This document shows positions 41,118 to 57,560 of a stretch of DNA of 64,000 bases, in pieces. Source of the stretch: Acerihabitans arboris (GTDB lineage Bacteria > Pseudomonadota > Gammaproteobacteria > Enterobacterales > Enterobacteriaceae); contig NZ_WUBS01000003.1 of assembly GCF_010131535.1 (NCBI RefSeq), forward strand, positions 186,001 to 250,000. The letters run 5' to 3'. The translations under genes were made by a program, and so were the position numbers. The first letter of the stretch is position 1; each line of letters opens with the position of its first letter. The notes under the pieces were generated by a model. The model was not told where the DNA came from and made no database searches. It was given only the letters and a program-made list of their open reading frames with translations.

Positions 41118-41840
41118 TCAGGCAGGCGTCTCGGCCTCATCCAGTCCGCAGATGCGAAACACGGCGGACACCACATGGGCGGTGGCGCGTTCGCGCTCAG
41201 GCTGGTCCATCGGCGCGCCGCCCATGACCGCGGCTATTTGCGCATCGAAGTCGGCATAGGTTTGCGTCATGGCCCAAATGGAAAAAAACAGATGGGTGCT
41301 GTCGAGCCTGCGCAGTTTGCCTTGGGTTATCCAGCCGTCGATAACCGCCGCCTTGCTTTCCACCAACTGGCGCAGGGTGGTGGCGAGCAGCGGCAGGGCC
41401 AGCGGCGCGCCGGCGAGGATTTCGCTGGCAAACAGCTTGGACGCCGCGGGCCGGGCGAAGGTAAACGCCATTTTCGCCCGCACATAACGTTCGATTACGG
41501 CGCGCGGACAGGCGGCGGGATGGAAATAATCCAGCGGAGACAACCAGTCGCCCAGGATGCGGTCCAGCACGGTCAGGTACAGCCTGTGCTTATTGCCGAA
41601 ATAGTAATGGATATTCGGCTTGGGCAACCGCGCCTCATCGGCAATCATCGCCATGGTGGCGCCCCTGAAGCCGTAGCGCGCAAAAATACGCTCCGCCGCC
41701 AGCAGGATCGCCGCTTCATTATCCAGGCGGATACGTCCCTTGCCCGCGCTGTCCTCCACCCCGGCCAGCCGGGCGCGCGCCTCCCGCGCCTCGGGCGGCG
41801 TCGCGCCGGTAATCGGCCGGATGATCGATGACGGTATCAT
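41118..41840 (-). CDS. TetR-family transcriptional regulator (RutR-like)
   Basis: Protein of 240 residues with a 40-residue unstructured N-terminus, then the TetR HTH (ILLAAERIFARYGFRGATM, PKPNIHYYFGNKHRLY). The C-terminal region (LDRILGDWLSPLDYF) resembles RutR/YcdC, regulators of pyrimidine and nitrogen-compound catabolism. It sits just downstream of a broken ABC importer remnant that was probably its target. AAGGAAC precedes the ATG. Confidence 0.83.
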   Translation of the reverse strand: MIPSSIIRPITGATPPEAREARARLAGVEDSAGKGRIRLDNEAAILLAAERIFARYGFRGATMAMIADEARLPKPNIHYYFGNKHRLYLTVLDRILGDWLSPLDYFHPAACPRAVIERYVRAKMAFTFARPAASKLFASEILAGAPLALPLLATTLRQLVESKAAVIDGWITQGKLRRLDSTHLFFSIWAMTQTYADFDAQIAAVMGGAPMDQPERERATAHVVSAVFRICGLDEAETPA

Positions 41841-41916
41841 TATGCTGTTCCTTCGTTAACGGCCCGTCGTTCGCCAACACGGCGGGCCGGCTGATGCGGC
41901 CGCCAAGGCCGGCCGC

Positions 41917-42411
41917 TTATTTAATCCTGGCGGCCGCGTCCCAGATCACATGGGTCATGGCGCTGTCGCCAGGGTCTTTTTTGATTACCGGGGCGCCGCC
42001 GTCCTTAAGCAGGACGTCCACCGTGCGCCGGTAGGCCTCGGGCGTCAGGTAGCCGATACGCGCGGTATCGACATTGGCGATCAGCTTGGCGACGTTTTCC
42101 ATCTGACGCTGCTGAACCTCCGCCGTGGCCGCGCCCGACATATCCTGATCCACCCCGATCTGCGCCGCTTCCGCGGGATTCTTCACCGCTTCCCGCCAGC
42201 CCGGGTAGGTGGCGTGCAGGAACCTGGCCATTTTGGCGACAAACGCCGGGTCCTTCAGTTTCGGTTCAAGCACGTACGGGCCGTCTTCCCGCGTCGAGAC
42301 GCCCTGGTCCTCATACGGGAACGAGATCAGATCGTCTTTTTTCATGCCCGCGTCGATCAGGTTGAGGTTGTCGCGCGTCAGTTCGTCCAGGGCGCCGAAC
42401 GGCTCGTCCAT
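41917..42411 (-). pseudogene. Chimeric remnant: ABC ATPase Walker B fused to NMT1-type substrate-binding protein C-terminus
   Basis: The frame opens with MDEPFGALDELTRDNL, the Walker B/D-loop of an SsuB/TauB-type ATPase, then passes directly into an NMT1-like binding protein C-terminus (DDLISFPYEDQGVSTREDGP, RFLHATYPGWREAVKNPAEA). The lost Walker A, permease and binding-protein N-terminus imply one or more deletions. It is a gene fossil, although the frame is open and might still be translated. Confidence 0.75.
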
Positions 42412-42746: not shown

Positions 42747-42760
42747 GGCACGTATATTGC
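42747..42760 (+). promoter_or_regulatory. Sigma-54 -24/-12 promoter, nitrilase operon
   Basis: AGGCACGTATATTGCTT: GG at 42747-42748 and GC at 42759-42760 with the exact 10-base gap of sigma-54 promoters. Transcription should begin near 42772, about 60 bases before the attenuator element. Confidence 0.82.
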
Positions 42761-42834: not shown

Positions 42835-42881
42835 GGCAAAGATGCCCTATCAACCGTAACGGTTGATGGGGCTTTTTTTTT
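42835..42881 (+). promoter_or_regulatory. ANTAR-type attenuator (hexaloop element plus terminator), nitrilase operon
   Basis: GGCAAAGATGCCC (42835-42847) can fold as GGC/GCC closing the six-base loop AAAGAT, with A at position 1 and G at position 4 as ANTAR proteins require. Its 3' arm is also the start of a strong terminator: 44-55 pairs with 61-72 of this 42800 block (12 base pairs), followed by nine T. The folds are mutually exclusive, as in amiE and nas leaders. The same 13 bases precede the nitrile hydratase terminator. A second upstream hexaloop hairpin was not found with confidence. Confidence 0.75.
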
Positions 42882-42900: not shown

Positions 42901-44613
42901 ATGATCAAAGAACCTGTTTCCGTCGCGGCAATTCAGTTTGAACCCACCCAATTTCGTAAAGAAGACAACATCCTCAGGCTGCTGGCCCTGGCCGGGGAAG
43001 CTGCGTCCAACGGCGCGCGCCTGATCGTCATGCCCGAGATGGGCACCACCGGCTATTGCTGGATGGATCGGGAAGAGGTGGCCGGCTACGTCGAGACGGT
43101 GCCCGGCGCCACCACCGATCGCTTCGGCCTGCTGGCGGCGCGCTATCAATGCTACCTGGTGGTCGGTTTGCCTGAAGTGGACGCGCGCAGCGGCCTGTAT
43201 TACAACAGCGCGGTACTGATAGGCCCCGACGGCGTGATCGGCAAACACCGCAAAACCCATCCGTATATTTCGGAGCCCAAATGGGCGGCGAACGGCGATT
43301 TGGGACATCAGGTCTTCCCTACCCCGCTTGGCAATATCGCGCTGCTGATTTGCATGGACATCCATTTTATCGAAACCGCCCGCCTGGCCGGCTTACAGGA
43401 CGCGGACGTCATTTGCCATATCAGCAACTGGCTGGCCGAGCGCACTCCCGCGCCTTACTGGATTAATCGCGCCTATGAAAACGACTGCTATCTGATTGAA
43501 AGCAATCGCTGGGGACGGGAACGCGGCGTCCAGTTCAGCGGCGGCAGCTGCATTATCGAGCCCAACGGCCATATCCAGTCCTGGCGCGACACCGGCGACG
43601 GCATCGTCTCCGGTCTCCTGCATCCCGGCGCCCAAGGGCGCGGCCTGCTGGCGGAGCGCCGGCCCGAGCTGTACAAGGAATTGATGACCAATACCTTTAT
43701 GTGGAATCCGCTGGATTTCTTCGGCCTGTACGCCGCCAGGCCCCTGCCGGAGGGCAAACGCTCGCATATCGCCGTCGGGCAATTCGAACCCGACGATGAT
43801 ATCAACGTCAATCTCAGCCGCATCGGACAATTGGCCGCCAGGGCAAAGGCGCAGGGCGCGGAGCTGCTGACGCTGCCCGAGCTTTGCCTTACCGGCAAAT
43901 ACCGCGCCCCCGCCAGCGCCATTACCCTGCGGCACGCCTCCGTCGGCGCCCTGATGGATCTGTGCGCCCGACTGCGGCTTTATTTGGTGGCGGGCATGGT
44001 GGAAGACGACGGCGACGGCAACCGCTATAACTCGGCATTGTTGATCGGTCCGGACGGCCTGCCGGGCGTGTATCGCAAAATCCATTTAACCGCGGAAGAC
44101 AAGACCTGGGCCACGCGCGGCAGCGCCTGGAAAACCTTTGATATTCCCTGCGGGCGCATCGGCCTGCTGATCGGCCATGACCTCGATTTCCCCGAGGCGG
44201 GACGGATCCTGGCAATGCGCGGCTGCGATATTATCGCCTGCCCGGCGGCGCTGGATCTGCCGGGGCCGATAGATCATCCCGGCACCAGCGTGCCCCACGA
44301 TTACCCCATTGCCACCGGGGCGTCCCGCCACCACTGGCTGTTAACCCGGGTGCGGGCCGGGGAAAACAATGTCTACCTGAGTTATGCCAATGCCAATCTT
44401 TCGGGGCTGAGCGGTATTTTCGGGCCGGATACCTTTGCCTGGCCCAGGCGCGAGGCGCTGGTCACCGAGGCTCGGGGCCTGGCCGTGCTGGAAATCGATA
44501 CCAGCAACCTGGACTCGGCCTATCCTACCAATGTGGTGCGCCGAAAAGATCTGGTCGCCATGCGCCAGCCCCATTATTACCAGCCGCTGATCCAGGTTGC
44601 CGGCGGCGAATGA
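42901..44613 (+). CDS. Tandem nitrilase-superfamily protein with one active-site-complete and one Cys-less domain
   Basis: Protein of 570 residues, about twice the usual length. Domain 1 (residues 5-260) has the full triad: Glu46 (MPEMGTTGY), Lys118 (HRKTH), Cys151 (LLICMDIHF). Domain 2 (residues 288-565) keeps Glu327 (LPELCLTG) and Lys393 (YRKIHLT) but has Gly425 (LLIGHDLDF) where the nucleophile Cys should be. Domain 1 should hydrolyse a nitrile or amide; domain 2 may be structural or a sensor. AAGGAG precedes ATG 42901; the frame open from 42757 runs through the leader terminator. First gene of an operon with amiC- and amiR-like genes. Confidence 0.87.
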   Translation: MIKEPVSVAAIQFEPTQFRKEDNILRLLALAGEAASNGARLIVMPEMGTTGYCWMDREEVAGYVETVPGATTDRFGLLAARYQCYLVVGLPEVDARSGLYYNSAVLIGPDGVIGKHRKTHPYISEPKWAANGDLGHQVFPTPLGNIALLICMDIHFIETARLAGLQDADVICHISNWLAERTPAPYWINRAYENDCYLIESNRWGRERGVQFSGGSCIIEPNGHIQSWRDTGDGIVSGLLHPGAQGRGLLAERRPELYKELMTNTFMWNPLDFFGLYAARPLPEGKRSHIAVGQFEPDDDINVNLSRIGQLAARAKAQGAELLTLPELCLTGKYRAPASAITLRHASVGALMDLCARLRLYLVAGMVEDDGDGNRYNSALLIGPDGLPGVYRKIHLTAEDKTWATRGSAWKTFDIPCGRIGLLIGHDLDFPEAGRILAMRGCDIIACPAALDLPGPIDHPGTSVPHDYPIATGASRHHWLLTRVRAGENNVYLSYANANLSGLSGIFGPDTFAWPRREALVTEARGLAVLEIDTSNLDSAYPTNVVRRKDLVAMRQPHYYQPLIQVAGGE

Positions 44614-44630
44614 GGTAACACGAGGTGAAT

Positions 44631-45794
44631 ATGTTTTCAGCAGATAATAGCCTGACGCCGGGCGGGAGCCGATCCAAGGCCATCATTCCGGTGGGCGTGC
44701 TCTATTCGGTATCCGGTCATTATGGCGGCATCGGGCGGGAAATGCTTAACGGCATTATGCTGGCCATCGAGGAAGTCAATGCCAGTAAAAGCTTTAACTT
44801 TACCCTGGCGCCGGTCATCTACGATCCCGGCTGCAACCTGGATAACTATTATCGCCATTGCCACGACCTGCTATACCAGCACGGGGTAAAACATATCGTC
44901 GGCTGTTATACCTCCGCCTCGCGCAAGCTGATTTTACCGCTGGTCGAGGGCGCCGACGCCCTGCTTTGGCATAGCGCACGCTACGAGGGTTTTGAAAGCA
45001 GCAACAACGTCATGTACCTGGGCGCCGCGCCTAACCAGCACGTGCTGCCGATGCTCGACTACGTCATCAATCACTATCCGGCCGAGATATACCATGTCGG
45101 CTCTGACTATATTTGGTCGGAAGAGATCGATCGCATCATCCGCGACGCGCTGGACGCCCGGGGCGGCACCCTGGTCCAAAGCCAGTTCCTGGCGCTCGGC
45201 GACACCGGGGTGGAACAGGTCATCCTGGATATTATCCGCCGCCGCCCCCCGGTGGTCATGGTCACGCTGGTCGGCATTTCGGCATACCGTTTTTACCGCG
45301 TCTGGAAAACCATGGAGCAAGAGCATGAATTCCTGCGTTCATCTTCCATCGTGCGGCTCAGCCTGACGCTGTGCGAATCGGAGGTGGCGATGGTGGGCGC
45401 GGACGCGCTGGAGGGATACCTGGTCTCCGCCGTGTATTTCCAAAGTATCGACAACGCGCAGAACCGGCAGTTTATCCAGCGCTATCGCAGCCGCTTCGGC
45501 GAAAACGCCACCACCACGGTGGACGCCGAGGCCGCCTGGATGTGCGGACACTTTTTAGCCAAGGGAATTAACCGGTGCGGCAGCGACGAGACGTCGGCGG
45601 TGCGGGAGGCGGTGTACGCCGAAAGCCTGTCGGCGCCCAACGGCATCACCCGCATCAACCGGGAAAATAACCATGCCAGCCTGACGCCGCGCCTGGCGCG
45701 GCTCGGCAAGGACGGGCGCTTTCATCTCCTTTGGCAGTCCCCCGCCCCGGTAATCCCAGACCCCTGGTTAACCTGGTCCGATTTTTCGTTATAG
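44631..45794 (+). CDS. AmiC-like cytoplasmic inducer-binding protein
   Basis: Protein of 387 residues with the type I periplasmic-binding fold (VGVLYSVSGHYGGIGREMLNG, YIWSEEIDRIIRDAL) but no signal peptide, as in AmiC of the Pseudomonas amidase operon. AmiC binds amides and releases the antiterminator AmiR. Here it probably senses a nitrile or the amide derived from it. GAGG before the ATG at 44631 decides against the GTG at 44625. Twenty bases separate it from the amiR-like gene. Confidence 0.85.
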   Translation: MFSADNSLTPGGSRSKAIIPVGVLYSVSGHYGGIGREMLNGIMLAIEEVNASKSFNFTLAPVIYDPGCNLDNYYRHCHDLLYQHGVKHIVGCYTSASRKLILPLVEGADALLWHSARYEGFESSNNVMYLGAAPNQHVLPMLDYVINHYPAEIYHVGSDYIWSEEIDRIIRDALDARGGTLVQSQFLALGDTGVEQVILDIIRRRPPVVMVTLVGISAYRFYRVWKTMEQEHEFLRSSSIVRLSLTLCESEVAMVGADALEGYLVSAVYFQSIDNAQNRQFIQRYRSRFGENATTTVDAEAAWMCGHFLAKGINRCGSDETSAVREAVYAESLSAPNGITRINRENNHASLTPRLARLGKDGRFHLLWQSPAPVIPDPWLTWSDFSL

Positions 45795-45814: not shown

Positions 45815-46429
45815 GTGCAAGAGGCTAAAAAACGACTGATGGTGCGAGGGTTGAAAATTGCGCTGTTCGGCTGTGCGCCTCGTGACGAAAAGAACCTGCT
45901 GCTGCAGTTTCAGCGTCTCGGCATCCAGGGCGACAGCTTTGCGGATTTCCATGATGACGTGTTCCGCGATCGTTATGACAGCGTGATTTTTGATTCCGAC
46001 AATAGCGTCCTGATCAAACAAATCAGCCAGGGCACGTGGCCGTCATTGCCTAAAATCGCCCTGATGGGACTGGAGACCCCGTCCCGCTTGTCCTGGGTCA
46101 TCGATCAGGAGGTGGACGGCTGGCTGCGCAAGCCGGTAAAGACCGACGGCATTTTATCCACCATCATCCTGGCCCGGCATCACTTTGAACGCCATCAGGC
46201 GCATCTGGACGCGCTCAGGCAACAGGACATTCGCATCCGTTCGCGCCGTTTCCTGTTGTCGGCGCAAATATTATTGATCCAGGAATTCAACTATAGCGAG
46301 CAGCAATCCTATGAATTATTGCGCCGTCTGGCAACCGAACAACAGCAAACGGTGGAGGAATTCTGCATCGTTTTTTTATCGCGCCAACGGGAATGGTTAT
46401 GCCTGCTGAAATCGCGCCATATGCAATAA
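45815..46429 (+). CDS. AmiR-like ANTAR-domain transcription antiterminator
   Basis: Protein of 204 residues: an N-terminal pseudoreceiver-like domain (LKIALFGCAPRDEKN; DSVIFDSDNSVL), a helical linker (about residues 125-150) and a C-terminal ANTAR domain (AQILLIQEFNYSEQQSYELL, RRLATEQQQTVEEFC). ANTAR domains bind paired hexaloop hairpins and prevent terminator formation. Start is GTG at 45815 with GAGG at good spacing. The two GGCAAAGATGCCC leaders in this window are its predicted targets. Confidence 0.88.
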   Translation: MQEAKKRLMVRGLKIALFGCAPRDEKNLLLQFQRLGIQGDSFADFHDDVFRDRYDSVIFDSDNSVLIKQISQGTWPSLPKIALMGLETPSRLSWVIDQEVDGWLRKPVKTDGILSTIILARHHFERHQAHLDALRQQDIRIRSRRFLLSAQILLIQEFNYSEQQSYELLRRLATEQQQTVEEFCIVFLSRQREWLCLLKSRHMQ

Positions 46430-46723: not shown

Positions 46724-46771
46724 GGCAAAGATGCCCCCGCGGCTCGCAAGAGTTGCAGGGGCTTTTTTTTT
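46724..46771 (+). promoter_or_regulatory. ANTAR-type attenuator, nitrile hydratase operon
   Basis: GGCAAAGATGCCC (46724-46736) is identical to 42835-42847. Its 3' arm begins the terminator: GCCCC (46733-46737) pairs with GGGGC (46758-46762), with an inner CTC/GAG stem closed by GCAA, followed by nine T. Outside the shared 13 bases, the GTCATA word and the T-run the two leaders differ, so conservation marks the functional element. Confidence 0.77.
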
Positions 46772-46844: not shown

Positions 46845-47456
46845 ATGAGCGATATTCTGGAGCCAACCGCGCCACCCAATATTCCGACGTTGCGGATTAA
46901 AGCCATTCAGTCCTTATTAATTGAAAAAGGCTATCTCAAGGCTGAAGCGGTGGATGAAATCATCGATATCTTTGAACATCGCTTCGGTCCGAAGAACGGC
47001 GCCAGGGTGGTGGCCAAAGCCTGGAGCGATCCGGCCTACAGGCAACGATTGCTGGATGATGCCACCGCGGCCATTGCCGAACTGGGTTTTACCGGGCTGG
47101 AAGGCGCCCACATGTTCGTGGCCGAAAATACCGCGACGGTCCACAACATGGTGGTGTGCACGCTGTGCTCCTGCTATCCATGGCCGACCCTGGGCCTGCC
47201 GCCCACCTGGTACAAAGCGCCGCAGTATCGCTCGCGGGCGGTCATGGAGCCGCGCGCGGTGCTGGAGGAGTTTAACGTGCGGCTGCCGGACAGCGTTGAA
47301 ATCCGGGTGTGGGACAGCAACGCCGAGATCCGCTATATGGTCCTGCCGCTGCGTCCGGCCGGCAGCGAAGGCATGGGCGAGGACGAACTGGCCGCCCTGG
47401 TCAGCCGCGACTCGATGATCGGCACCGCCGTGCTGCCCCCCGTAAGCCAGGCCTGA
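46845..47456 (+). CDS. Nitrile hydratase alpha-type subunit, cobalt type
   Basis: Protein of 203 residues. The metal claw is CTLCSC at residues 105-110; Thr in the second position marks cobalt-type enzymes (iron types have Ser). TARGET-type residues such as [14 protein letters not shown] and [13 protein letters not shown] follow as usual. It hydrates nitriles to amides after oxidation of two Cys to sulfinic/sulfenic forms. ATG at 46845 follows AAGAGGAAAGACA. Because the beta subunit is split, thiocyanate hydrolase (gamma subunit) is an alternative identity. Confidence 0.9.
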
Positions 47457-47483: not shown

Positions 47484-47801
47484 ATGAATTCAATTCACGA
47501 TGTAGGCGGCATGCATAACCTCGGCCCGGTGGCGATCAACCCCGGCGAGCCGGTATTCAAGGCGGAATGGGAAAAGCAGGTTTTTTCCACCATCGGCCTG
47601 TATTTTGCCGGTGGGCTGTGTCCCATCGACGAATTCCGCCACGCCATCGAGGTAATGGATCCCGCGGAATACCTCAGCACGCCCTACTACGTGCACTGGT
47701 ACCACGCGATGGAAAAGCTGGGGATCGAAAACGGATTGTTTACCCGGGAAGAGCTGGAAGACAAGATTCGGCAGTTGGCGCAGCGGGAGAAGGCATCATG
47801 A
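47484..47801 (+). CDS. Nitrile hydratase beta subunit, N-terminal half (separate gene)
   Basis: Protein of 105 residues, starting NSIHDVGGMHNLGPV as full beta subunits do. It has the conserved Arg in EFRHAIEVMDPAEYL that contacts the oxidised Cys ligands, then YYVHWYHAMEKL. A normal beta subunit is roughly 220 residues; this gene ends after the N-terminal domain and overlaps the next by four bases. Equivalent division occurs in thiocyanate hydrolase and toyocamycin nitrile hydratase. Confidence 0.88.
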   Translation: MNSIHDVGGMHNLGPVAINPGEPVFKAEWEKQVFSTIGLYFAGGLCPIDEFRHAIEVMDPAEYLSTPYYVHWYHAMEKLGIENGLFTREELEDKIRQLAQREKAS

Positions 47802-48151
47802 AGATCCTGGAAAAAGAGCAGGTTTACGACGCGGTGAAAACCAACCCGGTCTACGTACGGCCCACCGATCTGCCGATCCGCTTCGCCGCCGGCGATCGGG
47901 TTCAGGCAAAAAACATCCATCCCCAGGGCCATACCCGCCTGCCGCGCTACGTTCGCGGCAAGACCGGCACGGTGGTGCGCCGCCACGGCTCGTTCGTGTT
48001 TCCCGATACTGTTGCCCACGGCAACGGGGAAAAACCTCAGCACGTCTACAGCGTGCGCTTCGAGGCGCGGGAACTGTGGGGCGAGGAGCGCGGGGATAAT
48101 TCCGCCGTCTATCTCGATCTTTGGGATGACTATATCATTCCGGCAACCTGA
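47798..48151 (+). CDS. Nitrile hydratase beta subunit, C-terminal half (separate gene)
   Basis: Protein of 117 residues starting MKILEKEQVYDAV. FAAGDRVQAKNIHPQGHTRL and PRYVRGKTGTVVRRHGSFVF are the SH3-like C-terminal domain of the beta subunit, with the second conserved Arg in YSVRFEARELWG. Its ATG overlaps the stop of the N-terminal half (ATGA), so the two polypeptides are made in coupled fashion. The frame is clean, so this is an ancestral split rather than a recent nonsense mutation. Confidence 0.88.
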   Translation: MKILEKEQVYDAVKTNPVYVRPTDLPIRFAAGDRVQAKNIHPQGHTRLPRYVRGKTGTVVRRHGSFVFPDTVAHGNGEKPQHVYSVRFEARELWGEERGDNSAVYLDLWDDYIIPAT

Positions 48152-48164
48152 GGGGGAGCGCAGC

Positions 48165-48650
48165 ATGACGACGATAACCACATCCACCCCCGCCGCGACG
48201 GCCGGGGACGAGCCGGAAATGGCGTTCGGCGAGCCCTGGCAGGCGGAAGCCTTCGCCACCGCCCTGCAGCTGTCGCGCAACGGACTCTACCGCTGGAGCG
48301 AATGGGTAGAGGTGTTTTCGCGCACCATCAGGGAACGGCCGCAGCGGCCGGACGAAACCTTGGGGGAAGCCTATTATCGCCAGTGGCTGGGCGCGCTGGA
48401 AACGCTGCTGCAGGGCAAATCGCTGCTGTCCGGCGAGGATGTCGACGCGCGCCAGGCATTGTGGCACCTGGCCTATTTGCATACGCCGCATGGACAACCG
48501 GTGTCGCTGCAGCGCGTAGCGCATATCATCGATCCGTGCGCCACCCTGGATCGGGTCGCCGACCCTCATGCGGCGCATCACCATCACGGCCACGCGCATG
48601 GGGGCCGCCCGATCCCCACGCCGATTACGGTGGTTCCCGGAGCAGGCTGA
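48165..48650 (+). CDS. Nitrile hydratase accessory/activator protein with His-rich tail
   Basis: Protein of 161 residues. EPEMAFGEPWQAEAFATALQ and YRWSEWVEVFSRTI match the activator family (P14K-like), which is related to the beta N-terminal domain and delivers cobalt to the alpha subunit. The C-terminus ends in HAAHHHHGHAHGG, a likely metal-binding tail. GAGGGGGAGC precedes ATG 48165, 13 bases after the previous stop. Confidence 0.86.
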   Translation: MTTITTSTPAATAGDEPEMAFGEPWQAEAFATALQLSRNGLYRWSEWVEVFSRTIRERPQRPDETLGEAYYRQWLGALETLLQGKSLLSGEDVDARQALWHLAYLHTPHGQPVSLQRVAHIIDPCATLDRVADPHAAHHHHGHAHGGRPIPTPITVVPGAG

Positions 48651-48787: not shown

Positions 48788-49798
48788 ATGAGTGATTTAT
48801 CGCAGGGCCTTCCCCGGAAGGCCCCGGGCTCCCCTCGGCCCGGAAAAGGCCAACTCCCGGCGTTGCGCGGCGCGGCGTTGGCAATCGTGGTGTATGTGAT
48901 CATGTATCTGCTGTACGGCTGGTCGGAGCCCGGCGCGTTCAGCGCCTACGCCGTCGCCGACCTGGTCAATAACGCCGCCCCGCTGGCGCTGGCCGCCGCC
49001 GGGCAAACGCTGGTGGTGCTGACCCGGGGATTCGATTTATCCCTGGTGGGCGTCATTTCCATTGCCAACGTATTAACCGCCATTGCCCCGTTCGACGGGC
49101 CGGGCGGCGCGCTGTTCAGCCTGCTGCTATGCGTGGGCGCCGGCGCGCTGATCGGCCTGCTCAACGGTTACCTGGTGGCCTATCGCGGCATCCAGAGCAT
49201 CGCCGCGACGCTTGGCACCATGATTATCGGCCAGGGTATCGCCCTGCTCCTGCTGCCGGTGCCCGGCGGCTCGGTATCGGAGTTTATCAGCGACGGCCTG
49301 ACGGGCATGCTGTGGCAAATCCTGCCGGTATCAGCCCTGGTGCTGGCGTTTTTTGCCCTGGTCTGGCTGTTTATCAAGCGTACCGACACCGGCGTCGCCT
49401 TTTATGCGGTGGGCGCCGATGAAACCTCCGCCGGGTTGTCCGGCATCGCCGTCAAGTGGATGCGCTGCAAGGCGTTTATCCTGGCCGGCTGTTTCTACGG
49501 CGCGGCGGGATTTATGCTTAGCGCCCAAACCGCCACCGGCGATCCCAACTCGGGCCTGCCCTTTCTGCTGCTCTCCTTCGCCTCGGTAGCGCTGGGCGGC
49601 ACCAGCCTCGGCGGCGGGCGCGGCGGCGCGTTCGGTTCGATGGTGGGCGCGGCGGTGCTGCTGTTAATGCAAAAAATGCTGTTCGCCATTGGCGTCTCCT
49701 CGTTCTATATCGGCTTTTTCCAGGGCGTGCTGCTGGTGCTGTCCATCCTATGCGAGAAGGTGCTTAACCGTTCGCCACGCACAGGAGCGCATTCATGA
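48788..49798 (+). CDS. RbsC-type ABC transporter permease 1 of the nitrile hydratase operon
   Basis: Inner-membrane protein of 336 residues. LAAAGQTLVVLTRGFDLSLVG and AVGADETSAGLSGI are the permease family motifs; SVALGGTSLGGGRGG lies near the end. The first 30 residues are basic and Pro/Gly-rich. AGGAAG precedes ATG 48788. It starts 137 bases after the activator and is four-base-overlapped with a second permease, so the channel is probably heteromeric. Confidence 0.87.
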   Translation: MSDLSQGLPRKAPGSPRPGKGQLPALRGAALAIVVYVIMYLLYGWSEPGAFSAYAVADLVNNAAPLALAAAGQTLVVLTRGFDLSLVGVISIANVLTAIAPFDGPGGALFSLLLCVGAGALIGLLNGYLVAYRGIQSIAATLGTMIIGQGIALLLLPVPGGSVSEFISDGLTGMLWQILPVSALVLAFFALVWLFIKRTDTGVAFYAVGADETSAGLSGIAVKWMRCKAFILAGCFYGAAGFMLSAQTATGDPNSGLPFLLLSFASVALGGTSLGGGRGGAFGSMVGAAVLLLMQKMLFAIGVSSFYIGFFQGVLLVLSILCEKVLNRSPRTGAHS

Positions 49799-50829
49799 GC
49801 AAAATCTCCCTGGCGGCTCCGGAGGCCGGGCGTATCGACCGGCGCGCCAACGGCCGGATGAGTCCCGAGTCGGTCGCGCCGCTATTGTTGCTGGGCCTGA
49901 CGGTGGTGATGATCCTGGCCTCCCGCCTGATCAGCCCGTCCCTGGGATCCTGGTCGCAGGTGTTGATGATAGTGACCCTGGGCTCCTTCCTGCTGGTGGT
50001 GTCGTTCGGGCAGGGGCTGGTGGTCCTGTCCGGCGGCATGGATCTGTCGGTGGCGTCGCTGTTTATGTACGGCGGCGTGATGTCGGCGGGCGCGATAGGC
50101 GCCGCCGGCGGCAATATTGCCTATATGCTGCCGTTAATCCTGCTGTCCGCCGCGGCCATCGGCGCGCTCAGCGGCCTGGGGATCACATTGCTGCGCATCC
50201 CGCCGTTTATCATGACCATGGGCACCGGCATCATCGTCGCGTCACTGGCGCTCGGCGCCACCGGCGGCAGCACGCTCGGCGCGTCGCCCAAACTGTTGGC
50301 GGATATCGTCAAGGGCAGCGTATCCGGCATACCCTGCATCGTTCTGTTCACCCTGGTTTTCAGCGCGCTGGGGATCGTGATCCAGACGCGCACGGTGTTC
50401 GGACGCAACCTGTACGCGCTGGGAGGCAGCCCGGGCGCGGCCAGGGTCGGCGGCATCCCGGTCGGCGCGGCCACCGTGGCCGCCTATGCCCTGAGCGGGC
50501 TGTGCGCGGCCCTGGGCGGCGCGCTGCTTACCGGCTATTCCGACGGCGCCACCCTGCGCATGGGCGACCCTTACCTGCTGCCCTCCATTGCCGCGGTGGT
50601 GGTGGGCGGTTCCTCGATACTGGGCGGCAAAGGCACTTTTATCGGCACCATCGCCGGGTCGCTGTTTTTAACGACCGTGGACTCGGTGATTGCCGCCACC
50701 AGCCTCGGCCAGGGCTGGCGGCTGATTGTTTCCGGCGCGATTATTACCGTCGCCCTGTTATGCCAGTCCGGCTCGGCGAATTCACTCATCTTATTATCAG
50801 GAAAGACCCGGGCACTGTTTAAACGTTAA
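49795..50829 (+). CDS. RbsC-type ABC transporter permease 2 of the nitrile hydratase operon
   Basis: Inner-membrane protein of 344 residues. VVSFGQGLVVLSGGMDLSVAS and ALGGSPGAARVGGIPV are the family motifs, with AAVVVGGSSILGGKGTF near the C-terminus. The ATG overlaps the stop of permease 1. Most sugar importers of this class use one permease gene; a pair suggests a distinct subgroup. Confidence 0.88.
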   Translation: MSKISLAAPEAGRIDRRANGRMSPESVAPLLLLGLTVVMILASRLISPSLGSWSQVLMIVTLGSFLLVVSFGQGLVVLSGGMDLSVASLFMYGGVMSAGAIGAAGGNIAYMLPLILLSAAAIGALSGLGITLLRIPPFIMTMGTGIIVASLALGATGGSTLGASPKLLADIVKGSVSGIPCIVLFTLVFSALGIVIQTRTVFGRNLYALGGSPGAARVGGIPVGAATVAAYALSGLCAALGGALLTGYSDGATLRMGDPYLLPSIAAVVVGGSSILGGKGTFIGTIAGSLFLTTVDSVIAATSLGQGWRLIVSGAIITVALLCQSGSANSLILLSGKTRALFKR

Positions 50830-50878
50830 TTAACACCAAACATTTGGAATCAACTTAACAAACCGATCGGGAGTTAAT

Positions 50879-52102
50879 ATGTCAATGCAAACACGTCTTA
50901 AAAGATGTGCGGCCGCGGCCGTCGTTTTAATGGGATTATCAGGTTATTTTTCAGCGGCGCAGGCGGAAGACGCGCCGAAAAAATATAAAATATTCCTGAG
51001 CCTGAGCTATAGCGGAAATAACTGGATGAGCGAGACGGCAAATATTATCAAGTCGCTGGCGAAAACGCCGCCCTATGACAAAATGGTGGATTTGCAGGAG
51101 GTTATTTCCGGTACCGATCCGCAGGCGCAGATATCGGCTTATGAAAGTATGATTGCCGCCAAAGCGGACGGAATCATCAGTTTCCCGATATCGCCCACCG
51201 CCTTGAACCGCGTGATCCGGCGCGGCTGCGGCCAGGGCGTCAAATTTTTCATGTTTGATTCCACGGTAACGGAAAAATGCGCCTACAACATCAGTTATAT
51301 TTCAGCCGGCGCCGGGGAAAACATGGCCCAGCAGTTAGTGAATGAACTGGGCGGCAAAGGAAAGATATTTATGAATCGCGGCGTGCCCGGCACCTCGGTG
51401 GATAAACGCCATTTTGACGGCGCCATGCATATATTTAGCCAGTATCCGGGGATCTCGGTGGTCTCGGAATACTATGGCTATTGGGACGACCGCATCAGCC
51501 AACGTGAAACCGCCAAGGCCCTGGCGGCCCATCCGGACGTGGACGGCATTTGGTCCGAACTGGGCGAAGCCGGCGTGCTGAACGCCGTAGCCGACCGTAA
51601 AGGCCGGATGATGCCCATCATGGGGGAAAATATGAACGGCTTTCGTCTTGGTTTCCTCAATGCCGATTACCGCAAGCGCGGCCTGAGCGGCGTGTCCGCT
51701 GGTTCGCCCCCCGCCACCGCCGGCTACGCGTTCAAGCTGATGATGGAGGTCTTGACCGGCAAACGGAAACTGGAGCCGGCCAATATCGAGTATCCGCTGC
51801 CATGGGTCACCGCCGACCAGATGAAACTGTGCCAGGGCGGCGTCATTGCCGACGGTTGTAATGTGTTCGCGGCCAACCTGGTGCCGGAAGGTTTCTCGAC
51901 CGAGATCTATCACCCGGCATTCCTGCCGGAAATCACCCTGGATTCGGCGCTCAAGGGCGTGCCCACGCCGGGAACGACCATCCAGCCATTGCCAGAGGAA
52001 ATAACCAGGGCCGCGGATGAGCCAGGCATCAACTGCGAACGCTGCCAGGCGGCGCCGGATCAGTACAAGCTGACCAAGGTCCAGCCCACGGTTAAACCAT
52101 AA
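50879..52102 (+). CDS. Periplasmic substrate-binding protein of the nitrile hydratase operon
   Basis: Protein of 407 residues with a signal peptide (LKRCAAAAVVLMGLSGYFSA, cleavage near AQA-ED). The Peripla_BP_4 fold begins YKIFLSLSYSGNNWMSET. It is longer than RbsB-type proteins, with Cys pairs near the C-terminus (MKLCQGGVIADGC, INCERC) that could form disulfides. GGGAG precedes the ATG. As part of an operon with nitrile hydratase it may bind a nitrile, amide or nitrile-containing glycoside; unproven. Confidence 0.85.
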   Translation: MSMQTRLKRCAAAAVVLMGLSGYFSAAQAEDAPKKYKIFLSLSYSGNNWMSETANIIKSLAKTPPYDKMVDLQEVISGTDPQAQISAYESMIAAKADGIISFPISPTALNRVIRRGCGQGVKFFMFDSTVTEKCAYNISYISAGAGENMAQQLVNELGGKGKIFMNRGVPGTSVDKRHFDGAMHIFSQYPGISVVSEYYGYWDDRISQRETAKALAAHPDVDGIWSELGEAGVLNAVADRKGRMMPIMGENMNGFRLGFLNADYRKRGLSGVSAGSPPATAGYAFKLMMEVLTGKRKLEPANIEYPLPWVTADQMKLCQGGVIADGCNVFAANLVPEGFSTEIYHPAFLPEITLDSALKGVPTPGTTIQPLPEEITRAADEPGINCERCQAAPDQYKLTKVQPTVKP

Positions 52103-52124
52103 AGCACGCCGGGCCTCGCCCCGG

Positions 52125-52172
52125 CGTGCCGGGGAGAGACCATACCAATGCCGGGGAGACCGTGCCAACGCC
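52125..52172 (+). repeat. Short tandem repeat in the SBP-ATPase spacer
   Basis: TGCCGGGGAGAGACCATACCAA is followed directly by the variant ATGCCGGGGAGACCGTGCCAA. Together with the 42-base repeat in the next gene, it shows local duplication in this 220-base spacer. Confidence 0.5.
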
Positions 52173-52318
52173 GGACTTAACCGTGGAGCGTTAAACACAG
52201 AGCGCGCCAGCTCCGCACTTAATACCGGCGTGTTGCAGCCGGGTGGCGGCAAGGTTGGCCAGCAACTCATACTATTCTACCGATGGCCGCGCGCCATCGG
52301 GACAGGAGATCGCAATTC

Positions 52319-52402
52319 ATGCAACCATCCTTAACTCAACCGACATCCGGCGCGCGAGGCATGCAGCCATCCCTGCCTCAACCGGTATCAGGCACGCAAG
52401 GC
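52319..52402 (+). repeat. 42-base tandem duplication in the ATPase N-terminus
   Basis: Two 42-base units (52319-52360 and 52361-52402), each beginning ATGCARCCATCC and ending with GGC, encode MQPSLTQPTSGARG and MQPSLPQPVSGTQG. Each unit begins with ATG, as does the canonical domain start at 52403. Confidence 0.8.
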
Positions 52403-53893
52403 ATGCGCCTTTCCTCGGTTTCAAAATCCTATGGCGCCACCGTGGCGCTGGAGAGCGTCTCATTGACTATCGAACCCGGACAGGTACAGGCTATACTCGG
52501 GGAAAACGGCGCCGGGAAATCAACGCTGGTAAAAATTCTCTCGGGAGTGGTGACGCCCAATACCGGCGCCATGATCCTGGAGGGCCGGGACTATGCCCCG
52601 CGTTCACTGCTCCAGGCTCGTCATATCGGCGTCAGCACCGCGTTCCAGGAGCTCAGCCTGCTGCCCAATCTCAGCGTCGCCCAGAATTTTTTCCTGCCGA
52701 GTTCCCTCAAACAACAGTTTTTTTTCACCTCGCCAAAACAGATGGCGCGCCGCGCCGAAGCCATTTTAGCCGATCACGACGTACAGGATATTTCGCCACA
52801 TGCCAACGTTGAAACGCTCTCCCTGGCCGCGCGCCAGCGGGTGGAAATCGTTCGCGCCATGCACTACCGCCCCCGGCTGCTGCTGCTGGACGAGCCCACC
52901 GGCGCGCTGGCCGACGTAGACTGGCTGTTCCGCCTGGTGCGCCGGCTCACCGCCGCGGGCACCGCCGTGCTCTATATCTCGCACCGGCTGGCGGAAATCC
53001 GGGAAATCGCCAGCCATGCCATGGTATTGCGCAGCGGTAAAACCATCTCGACGGTGGAGCTAAAACAGGTGACCAACGCCGACATTTTCGAGATGATGGT
53101 GGGACGCCGGGCGACGCGGGATCGGCCGCGCGGGCGCGCCGAGCCGTTGCACCCGCAAAGCGCCGCGCTTACGGCCAACGATTTGGGCGGCCAGAATTTC
53201 AGCGATATCTCTTTTGAACTGCGGCGGGGGGAAATTCTCGGCGTGGCGGGCCTGGAGGGCCAGGGACAGCGGGAATTGTTCCGCACCCTGGCGGGCCTGA
53301 TGCGTCATAGCGCGGGACAAATGCTGCTGCGCGACCGCGAGGTGATATTGCGCAGCCCCCGCGATGCGCTGCGTAAATACGGCGGCATTGCCTTTGTGCC
53401 GGAGGATCGCAAAAGCGAAGGCATTTTCCCTACCCTGTCGGCCGGCGCCAATATTACCCAATCCATGCTGCATCGGTTTAGCCGGTTCGGGCTTATCCGC
53501 CGGGACAAGGAGCGCCGGGCGGTCGGGCGCGTGGCGCCGCAGGTGGAGCTGGGCGAGCGGTATTTATCTTTTAAAATCAGCGCGCTCTCGGGCGGCAACC
53601 AGCAAAAGGCCTTGATTGCCCGCGCCCTGCTGACCGGCGCCAGCACGCTGCTGCTGTTTGATCCCACGCGCGGGGTGGATGTGGGCACCAAGGAGGTGAT
53701 CTACCAGGCCATTAAGGCGTTCGTGGACCAAGGCGGCGCGGTCATGATCTACTCCACGGATCTGGCCGAGCTGCAAACGTTGGTCGATCGGTGCCTGGTT
53801 ATGTATCGTGGCCGTATCCTGGCGGATTTGCCGCGCGACAATCTGGATGAAGGCGAGATGATCGGGCTGATGACGGGCAACGCCGCCGGATAA
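52319..53893 (+). CDS. RbsA-type two-domain ABC ATPase of the nitrile hydratase operon
   Basis: Protein of 524 residues. Domain 1: Walker A GENGAGKS, signature LSLAARQRVEI, Walker B LLLLDEPTGAL. Domain 2: Walker A degenerate (GLEGQGQR), signature LSGGNQQKALIARAL, Walker B LLLFDPTRGVDVG, with Asp-Pro instead of Asp-Glu, as common in domain 2 of this class. ACAGGAG precedes ATG 52319. The first 28 residues are two copies of a 14-residue unit (MQPSL-QP-SG-G), before the usual start at MRLSSVSKSYG. Confidence 0.88.
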   Translation: MQPSLTQPTSGARGMQPSLPQPVSGTQGMRLSSVSKSYGATVALESVSLTIEPGQVQAILGENGAGKSTLVKILSGVVTPNTGAMILEGRDYAPRSLLQARHIGVSTAFQELSLLPNLSVAQNFFLPSSLKQQFFFTSPKQMARRAEAILADHDVQDISPHANVETLSLAARQRVEIVRAMHYRPRLLLLDEPTGALADVDWLFRLVRRLTAAGTAVLYISHRLAEIREIASHAMVLRSGKTISTVELKQVTNADIFEMMVGRRATRDRPRGRAEPLHPQSAALTANDLGGQNFSDISFELRRGEILGVAGLEGQGQRELFRTLAGLMRHSAGQMLLRDREVILRSPRDALRKYGGIAFVPEDRKSEGIFPTLSAGANITQSMLHRFSRFGLIRRDKERRAVGRVAPQVELGERYLSFKISALSGGNQQKALIARALLTGASTLLLFDPTRGVDVGTKEVIYQAIKAFVDQGGAVMIYSTDLAELQTLVDRCLVMYRGRILADLPRDNLDEGEMIGLMTGNAAG

Positions 53894-56951: not shown

Positions 56952-57560
56952 TCAGCTTTTGCCGCCTACGGCATCGTGCGGCAAATCCCCATAAGGGCAT
57001 TCCGCCACGCCGATGGTGCCGCGGGTGATGCGCTCCACATTTTCCCGCGCCTTTTTCGCATCGAGCACCCAGGTCCGGTAGAAATCAAACGGATACTCGG
57101 CAACGCCCTTTTCGCCATCACCCGAATGATAGATGCCGGTATACCCCCGGTGAAGCAGTTTAAATAGATGGTTCTGCGCCCGATCGTATTTACGCGCATC
57201 GCGGATTTCTGGTATCGAGAGCTGGGCATACTGGATACCCCTCTCCTCTTCCCCGCATTCGCCCAGCGTGCGACCGTCAAACCCGATAATGGCCGAATGG
57301 CCGAAATAGGTATAGACGCCGTCAAAGCCGGTACAGTTCGCCACCGCGACATAACAGTTATTGGCCCAGGCCATGGCCTTGGAAATAAGCACCTGCTGGT
57401 CTTTCGCCGGATACATATATCCCTGGCACCTGACAATTAACTCTGCCCCTTTCATGGCGCAACCACGCCAGATTTCCGGATAATTACCATCATCACAGAT
57501 GATGAGGATGTATTGGGCGCCGCGCGCTGACGGGTTGGGATGTAAAGCCGATAGCGTCAT
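56952..57560 (-). pseudogene. amiE: Truncated aliphatic amidase (amiE)
   Basis: The minus-strand frame reads [51 protein letters not shown] and [18 protein letters not shown], a close match to the C-terminal half of aliphatic amidase, including the Cys nucleophile in IICDDG. The N-terminal half, with the catalytic Glu and Lys, is missing: before LIICDDG the frame is unrelated. The break lies at about 57500. In Pseudomonas amiE is the gene controlled by AmiC/AmiR, so this fossil links the ANTAR system to amide hydrolysis. Confidence 0.85.

Follow-up and report, generated by a model that had tools for sequence, protein, structure and literature searches.

A tandem nitrilase-fold protein encoded in Acerihabitans arboris pairs one apparently catalytic domain with a second copy of the fold whose nucleophilic cysteine is replaced by glycine, and this dead state appears to be shared across its family. 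Gene content and order, residue conservation and leader elements observed in the window (the whole 64,000-nucleotide stretch of DNA analysed) and in related loci, together with a predicted fold, point to an inducible cytoplasmic amidase. In this enzyme, domain 1 would be catalytic, domain 2 would be a dead, fused dimer half, and an AmiC/AmiR-type switch would be shared with nitrile hydratase. We give this reading a probability of roughly 60%. The protein is a variant within a known enzyme kind, not a new enzyme kind. In the literature searched, whose coverage leaves out most subscription journals, we found no account of a tandem nitrilase protein with one dead domain.

The 570-residue chain contains two CN_hydrolase stretches (Pfam PF00795, E 2.7e-74; Table 1), as expected from an earlier note on this DNA that had described a double-headed nitrilase-fold protein. 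The residues numbered in that note (Glu46, Lys118 and Cys151 in domain 1; Glu327, Lys393 and Gly425 in domain 2) all lie where it had placed them. The second catalytic Glu of domain 1, Glu125, corresponds to Asp400 in domain 2, and the RRP..Y motif of the domain 1 tail (residues 253–258) lies shortly before the linker. The gene very probably begins at ATG 42901. An alternative 618-residue frame with a TTG start at 42757 is unlikely to be real, because it runs through the terminator-like leader and because ATG 42901 is preceded by AAGGAG.

Table 1. Features of the tandem nitrilase and nitrile hydratase region, in window coordinates
Feature	Position	Strand	Remarks
Leader 1, before tandem gene	42835..42881	+	GGC-AAAGAT-GCC hexaloop hairpin, 3' arm shared with intrinsic terminator
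Tandem CN_hydrolase (nitrilase-fold) protein	42901..44613	+	570 aa ORF; two CN_hydrolase stretches
Domain 1	42901..43686	+	Residues 1-262; intact Glu46-Lys118-Glu125-Cys151; Cys codon 43351-43353
Linker	43687..43749	+	Residues 263-283; invariant W268, N269, L276, Y277
Domain 2, putative pseudo-domain	43750..44610	+	Residues 284-570; Gly425 codon 44173-44175 in place of Cys
AmiC-like amide sensor (Peripla_BP_5), putative	44625..45794	+	P. aeruginosa AmiC 1pea, E 3.4e-67, residues 23-383
AmiR-like ANTAR antiterminator, putative	45815..46429	+	AmiR_N and 1qo0 AmiR match
Leader 2, before nitrile hydratase operon	46724..46771	+	GGC-AAAGAT-GCC plus terminator
Nitrile hydratase alpha	46845..47456	+	TIGR01323, 298 bits (cut-off 250); CTLCSC metal motif
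Nitrile hydratase beta, N-terminal half, own gene	47484..47801	+	NHase_beta_N
Nitrile hydratase beta, C-terminal half, own gene	47798..48151	+	NHase_beta_C; ATGA overlap at 47798-47801
Nitrile hydratase accessory protein	48165..48650	+	TIGR03889, 77.5 bits (cut-off 46)
Ribose-type ABC importer	48788..53893	+	Two permeases, binding protein, ATPase

Residue conservation indicates that the loss of the domain 2 nucleophile is old. We aligned 79 full-length homologue rows, a few of them near-identical, taken from genome contigs and a family-level search. Glu46, Lys118, Glu125 and Cys151 of domain 1 were each present in 79/79, and position 425 of domain 2 was Gly in every row; 12 further full-length rows likewise had Gly at this place, as did the Thermomicrobium roseum protein (GLLIGSD). 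The earlier note had proposed a dead second domain that is retained, and had named Cys at position 425 in homologues as the sign of a local mutation. Such homologues were looked for, and none of the tandem proteins examined (sampled at family, order, class and phylum level and on plasmids) had Cys in domain 2; wider sampling could find one. Since Gly425 is invariant and Cys was absent from these homologues, we interpret domain 2 as an old, family-wide pseudo-domain, and the 79/79 count rules out a local mutation, a pseudogene or a sequencing error at this position. Hosts of the family belong to six phyla (Pseudomonadota, Bacillota, Spirochaetota, Thermodesulfobacteriota and Planctomycetota, with Thermomicrobium in addition), and E. 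coli genomes had no near match.

The other former catalytic residues of domain 2 drift, while its dead state is stable. Position 393 is Lys in 41 rows and Gln in 38, a distribution that needs 10 changes on the tree, at least 8 of them forced by supported branches. Glu327 is kept in 72/79 and replaced in the other seven, and the place of Asp400 is Asp in 61/79. Mean pairwise identity is 51% for domain 2 versus 69% for domain 1, so domain 2 is diverging faster. The statement in the earlier note that only the nucleophile was lost therefore holds for this copy, which has both Glu and Lys, but not for the family. Judged from the alignment, drift at Glu327 and Lys393 argues against a substrate site of the former type in domain 2, substrate binding being the other role offered in the earlier note, and would be compatible with another ligand.

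Structure prediction of the entire chain, a check suggested in the earlier note, gave a nitrilase fold for both domains and placed them in one confident unit (AlphaFold2 from 57 sequences, mean pLDDT 90.6, pTM 0.90). Domain 2 predicted alone, from 39 rows, was again a nitrilase domain (pLDDT 85.1, pTM 0.84). When the predicted structures were compared with solved ones by VIA-align, the Pyrococcus horikoshii amidase 6ypa was closest to both domain 1 (Z 39.0, rmsd 1.5, 255 aligned) and domain 2 (Z 34.4, rmsd 1.8, 230 aligned).

Domain 2 lost roughly 15–30 pLDDT points in two regions when folded alone: the C-terminal tail (residues 544–570; 47 alone versus 63–80 in the full chain) and the loop at 454–483 (56–69 versus 83–89, with residues 464–473 at 61 versus 83–88). 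This lower confidence suggests that the full model probably packs the tail and loop against domain 1, although the gain in the tail may be owed partly to the deeper alignment (57 versus 39 rows). Both tails contain invariant residues (R253, R254, P255, Y258, W268 and N269 on the domain 1 side; R547, K549, M554, R555 and Y560 in domain 2), and for some amidase and Nit2 chains the alignment starts in domain 1 and reaches the domain 2 tail (model residues 3–550 and 3–563). Dimerization through the A interface is general in nitrilases, and most of the superfamily retains this interface (PMC6214922). From the prediction confidence, the invariant tails and the generality of this interface, we infer an intramolecular pseudo-dimer. 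To this extent, and on modelled grounds, the earlier suggestion that the second domain shapes the oligomer is supported.

Domain 1 belongs to the nitrilase superfamily by fold, profile and catalytic tetrad; domain 2 matches by fold and profile but lacks the nucleophilic Cys. The best NCBIfam match was the archaeal nitrilase NF040852, at 254.6 bits far below its cut-off of 500, and the aliphatic amidase AmiE profile NF009802 scored 51.6 against a cut-off of 427 bits. True nitrilases (branch 1) usually have the nucleophile motif Cys-Trp-Glu. The motif of domain 1 is Cys151-Met-Asp, with C151 and M152 both invariant (79/79); this motif and the amidase 6ypa as nearest solved structure speak for an amidase. 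In fold and catalytic residues, domain 1 resembles the P. horikoshii amidase PH0642 (6ypa/1j31) and the hyperthermophilic nitrilase 3ivz, with 34%–35% identity and Z of about 39. These proteins and NF040852 are single-domain and lack the dead copy present in the tandem protein. Receptor protein tyrosine phosphatases have the same architecture of an active D1 and a dead D2 in one chain (PMC7320164), but their fold and role are unrelated, and the likeness is an analogy only. Public annotation of the family is limited to 'nitrilase-related carbon-nitrogen hydrolase' or 'amidohydrolase'.

The genes following the tandem gene encode putative amide-responsive regulators. No signal peptide was seen in the AmiC-like sensor. 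The AmiR-like protein matched AmiR_N at 36.5 bits (cut-off 27) and the AmiR structure 1qo0 at E 4.6e-7; its ANTAR match, 23.7 bits, was below the Pfam cut-off of 27.3. The window contains exactly two copies of the sequence GGCAAAGATGCC, against 0.02 expected, one in each leader. In both leaders, the 3' arm of the GGCAAAGATGCC hairpin is also the 5' arm of a terminator, which is followed by a T run. In the AAAGAT loop, positions 1 and 4 are A and G, both important in the hexaloops of ANTAR targets (PMC3369931), and the leaders contain the P2 element, an A1/G4 hexaloop hairpin overlapping a terminator. The first hairpin of the dual-hairpin ANTAR target (P1) was not found in consistent or clear form in nine leaders, and a search of the leaders against Rfam gave nothing above the gathering threshold.

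We scanned 1.48 Mb of loci for leaders that likewise combine a stem, an A..G.. loop and an overlapping terminator and found 38 sites, compared with two in the reversed-sequence control. All but one of the 38 had a cluster gene no more than 350 bp downstream, and these 37 include near-copy loci and represent fewer than 37 independent events. The arrangement recalls the Pseudomonas aeruginosa operon amiE-amiB-amiC-amiR-amiS, which likewise combines a nitrilase-fold enzyme, AmiC/AmiR homologues and a hairpin-terminator leader before the enzyme gene. However, P. aeruginosa AmiE has one domain and belongs to another amidase subfamily, no amiB or amiS was noted here, and a second leader serves nitrile hydratase. 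A truncated aliphatic amidase AmiE is also present in the window (56952–57560, minus strand; profile positions 157–341 of 345, 348 bits). It lacks the N-terminal part bearing the catalytic Glu and Lys and is likely a remnant.

The nitrile hydratase operon has its beta subunit split into two genes. The split is kept in five relatives (L009–L012 and L113), and beta is apparently fused in two others (L060 and L114). Toyocamycin nitrile hydratase (alpha, beta, gamma) and thiocyanate hydrolase also have three subunits, two of them small. In the toyocamycin enzyme, the two small subunits are halves of beta. Their masses are 10 and 11.4 kDa (PMC8574189). Unlike in these two systems, nitrile hydratase here adjoins an amidase, AmiC/AmiR and an importer.

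Tandem genes of relatives occurred in three contexts: with Urt-type ABC importers, usually plus FmdA; with nitrile hydratase and/or a ribose-type importer; and with a CodB-like permease. Many, not all, of the loci examined also had AmiC-like and/or ANTAR genes. Nitrile hydratase was absent from most relatives, so nitriles are not the general starting point of the family. Among the carriers of the tandem gene that also have nitrile hydratase are Erwinia typographi and Pseudomonas typographi (L010, L060). The name 'typographi' points to bark beetles, and these carriers may hint at plant-derived nitriles. On the minus strand before the tandem gene (41118–42411), we observed a RutR-like TetR regulator (RutR profile 179 versus 368 bits) beside a frame in which the start of an ABC ATPase appears to run into the last part of a substrate-binding protein; this frame may be what a deletion left behind.

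These features suggest a pathway in which the tandem protein, as a cytoplasmic amidase, would convert amide to acid and ammonia through the Glu-Lys-Glu-Cys tetrad of domain 1. Domain 2 would take the place, within one chain, of the partner subunit in the standard nitrilase dimer and would hold the dimer-face tail and active-site surroundings of domain 1 in place. On sensing amide, the AmiC-like protein would release the AmiR-like ANTAR protein, which could then stabilize the leader hairpin, a competitor of the terminator. Because the same switch would act on both leaders, we propose that termination would be lifted in both and that nitrile hydratase and amidase would be made together. Nitrile taken up by the importer of the nitrile hydratase operon would be hydrated to amide, and the tandem amidase would finish the path.

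Other roles for domain 2 have to be weighed against that of a fused dimer half. It could be a regulatory module that exerts allosteric control over domain 1 by binding amide or product in its former active-site pocket. We consider this possible, if unlikely: the fold is kept, the former nucleophile turn has an invariant Gly and a near-invariant Asp, and domain 2 has conserved residues of its own (H395, W403, P469-I470 and H478), but the drift of the former catalytic residues and the faster divergence of domain 2 argue against such a module. A new catalytic chemistry without cysteine is highly improbable, as the residue next to Gly425 is variable (H/E/Y/Q/D/N/T/S) and no conserved replacement nucleophile was seen in the 79-row alignment; the invariant RxRxGENN, PRxE and SG motifs outside the old tetrad would suit such chemistry, although some are probably ordinary fold residues.

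Domain 1 might have a different substrate, a doubtful alternative that would leave the reasoning about the dead domain unaffected. The tandem protein would then be a true nitrilase, turning nitrile into acid, or else a carbamoylase or ureidase. The former would agree with NF040852 as the best NCBIfam match, despite its low score, but not with the Cys-Met-Asp motif, and the adjoining nitrile hydratase would make a nitrilase redundant. The latter draws on the Urt-type importers and FmdA beside relatives, which also suit urea-like substrates.

If domain 2 is a dead, fused dimer half, as we favor, the family would offer a direct, natural way to separate catalysis from assembly among nitrilase-fold enzymes, which are used industrially and whose activity and specificity hinge on contacts between subunits (PMC6214922). 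The putative amidase would add an unassigned type to nitrile hydratase pathways, with a candidate antitermination regulon linking nitrile hydration to amide hydrolysis. More tentatively, we can imagine an early, lineage-wide swap of a C-N hydrolase homodimer for a covalent active/dead pseudo-heterodimer, with the dead half free to become a ligand-sensing regulator and the AmiC/AmiR-like switch reused to couple nitrile hydratase. If true, this would fix stoichiometry and possibly block the spiral growth typical of nitrilases.

More distant tandem proteins show the same loss. Gly occupies the domain 2 nucleophile place in the diverged proteins recovered by phylum- and class-level profile searches (L104–L106, with E 3e-86 to 6e-93; L120; and L118). 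L114 also belongs to these diverged families and has no Cys in its second domain. L118 has an apparent signal peptide, and a secreted version of the tandem nitrilase may thus exist. A Klebsiella plasmid member of the diverged family, read by eye, has Asp at this place (GLLNDYD) and lacks the catalytic Glu and Lys of domain 2 as well; nitrile hydratase genes cluster with its tandem gene. In a tree of separated domains, which has several long branches, a single branch with 82/79 support, recovered in 80% of 200 bootstrap trees, had all domain 2s on the same side; this fits one origin of the dead domain without proving it. Domain 2 may have arisen by duplication of domain 1 or by fusion of a close paralogue. 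A domain 2 profile search recovered tandem proteins and many single nitrilases matching partially. Elsewhere in the same genome, 30 residues in a short open frame (L115:3661-3750) are 70% identical to the C-terminal tail of the tandem protein, possibly the remnant of a second tandem copy.
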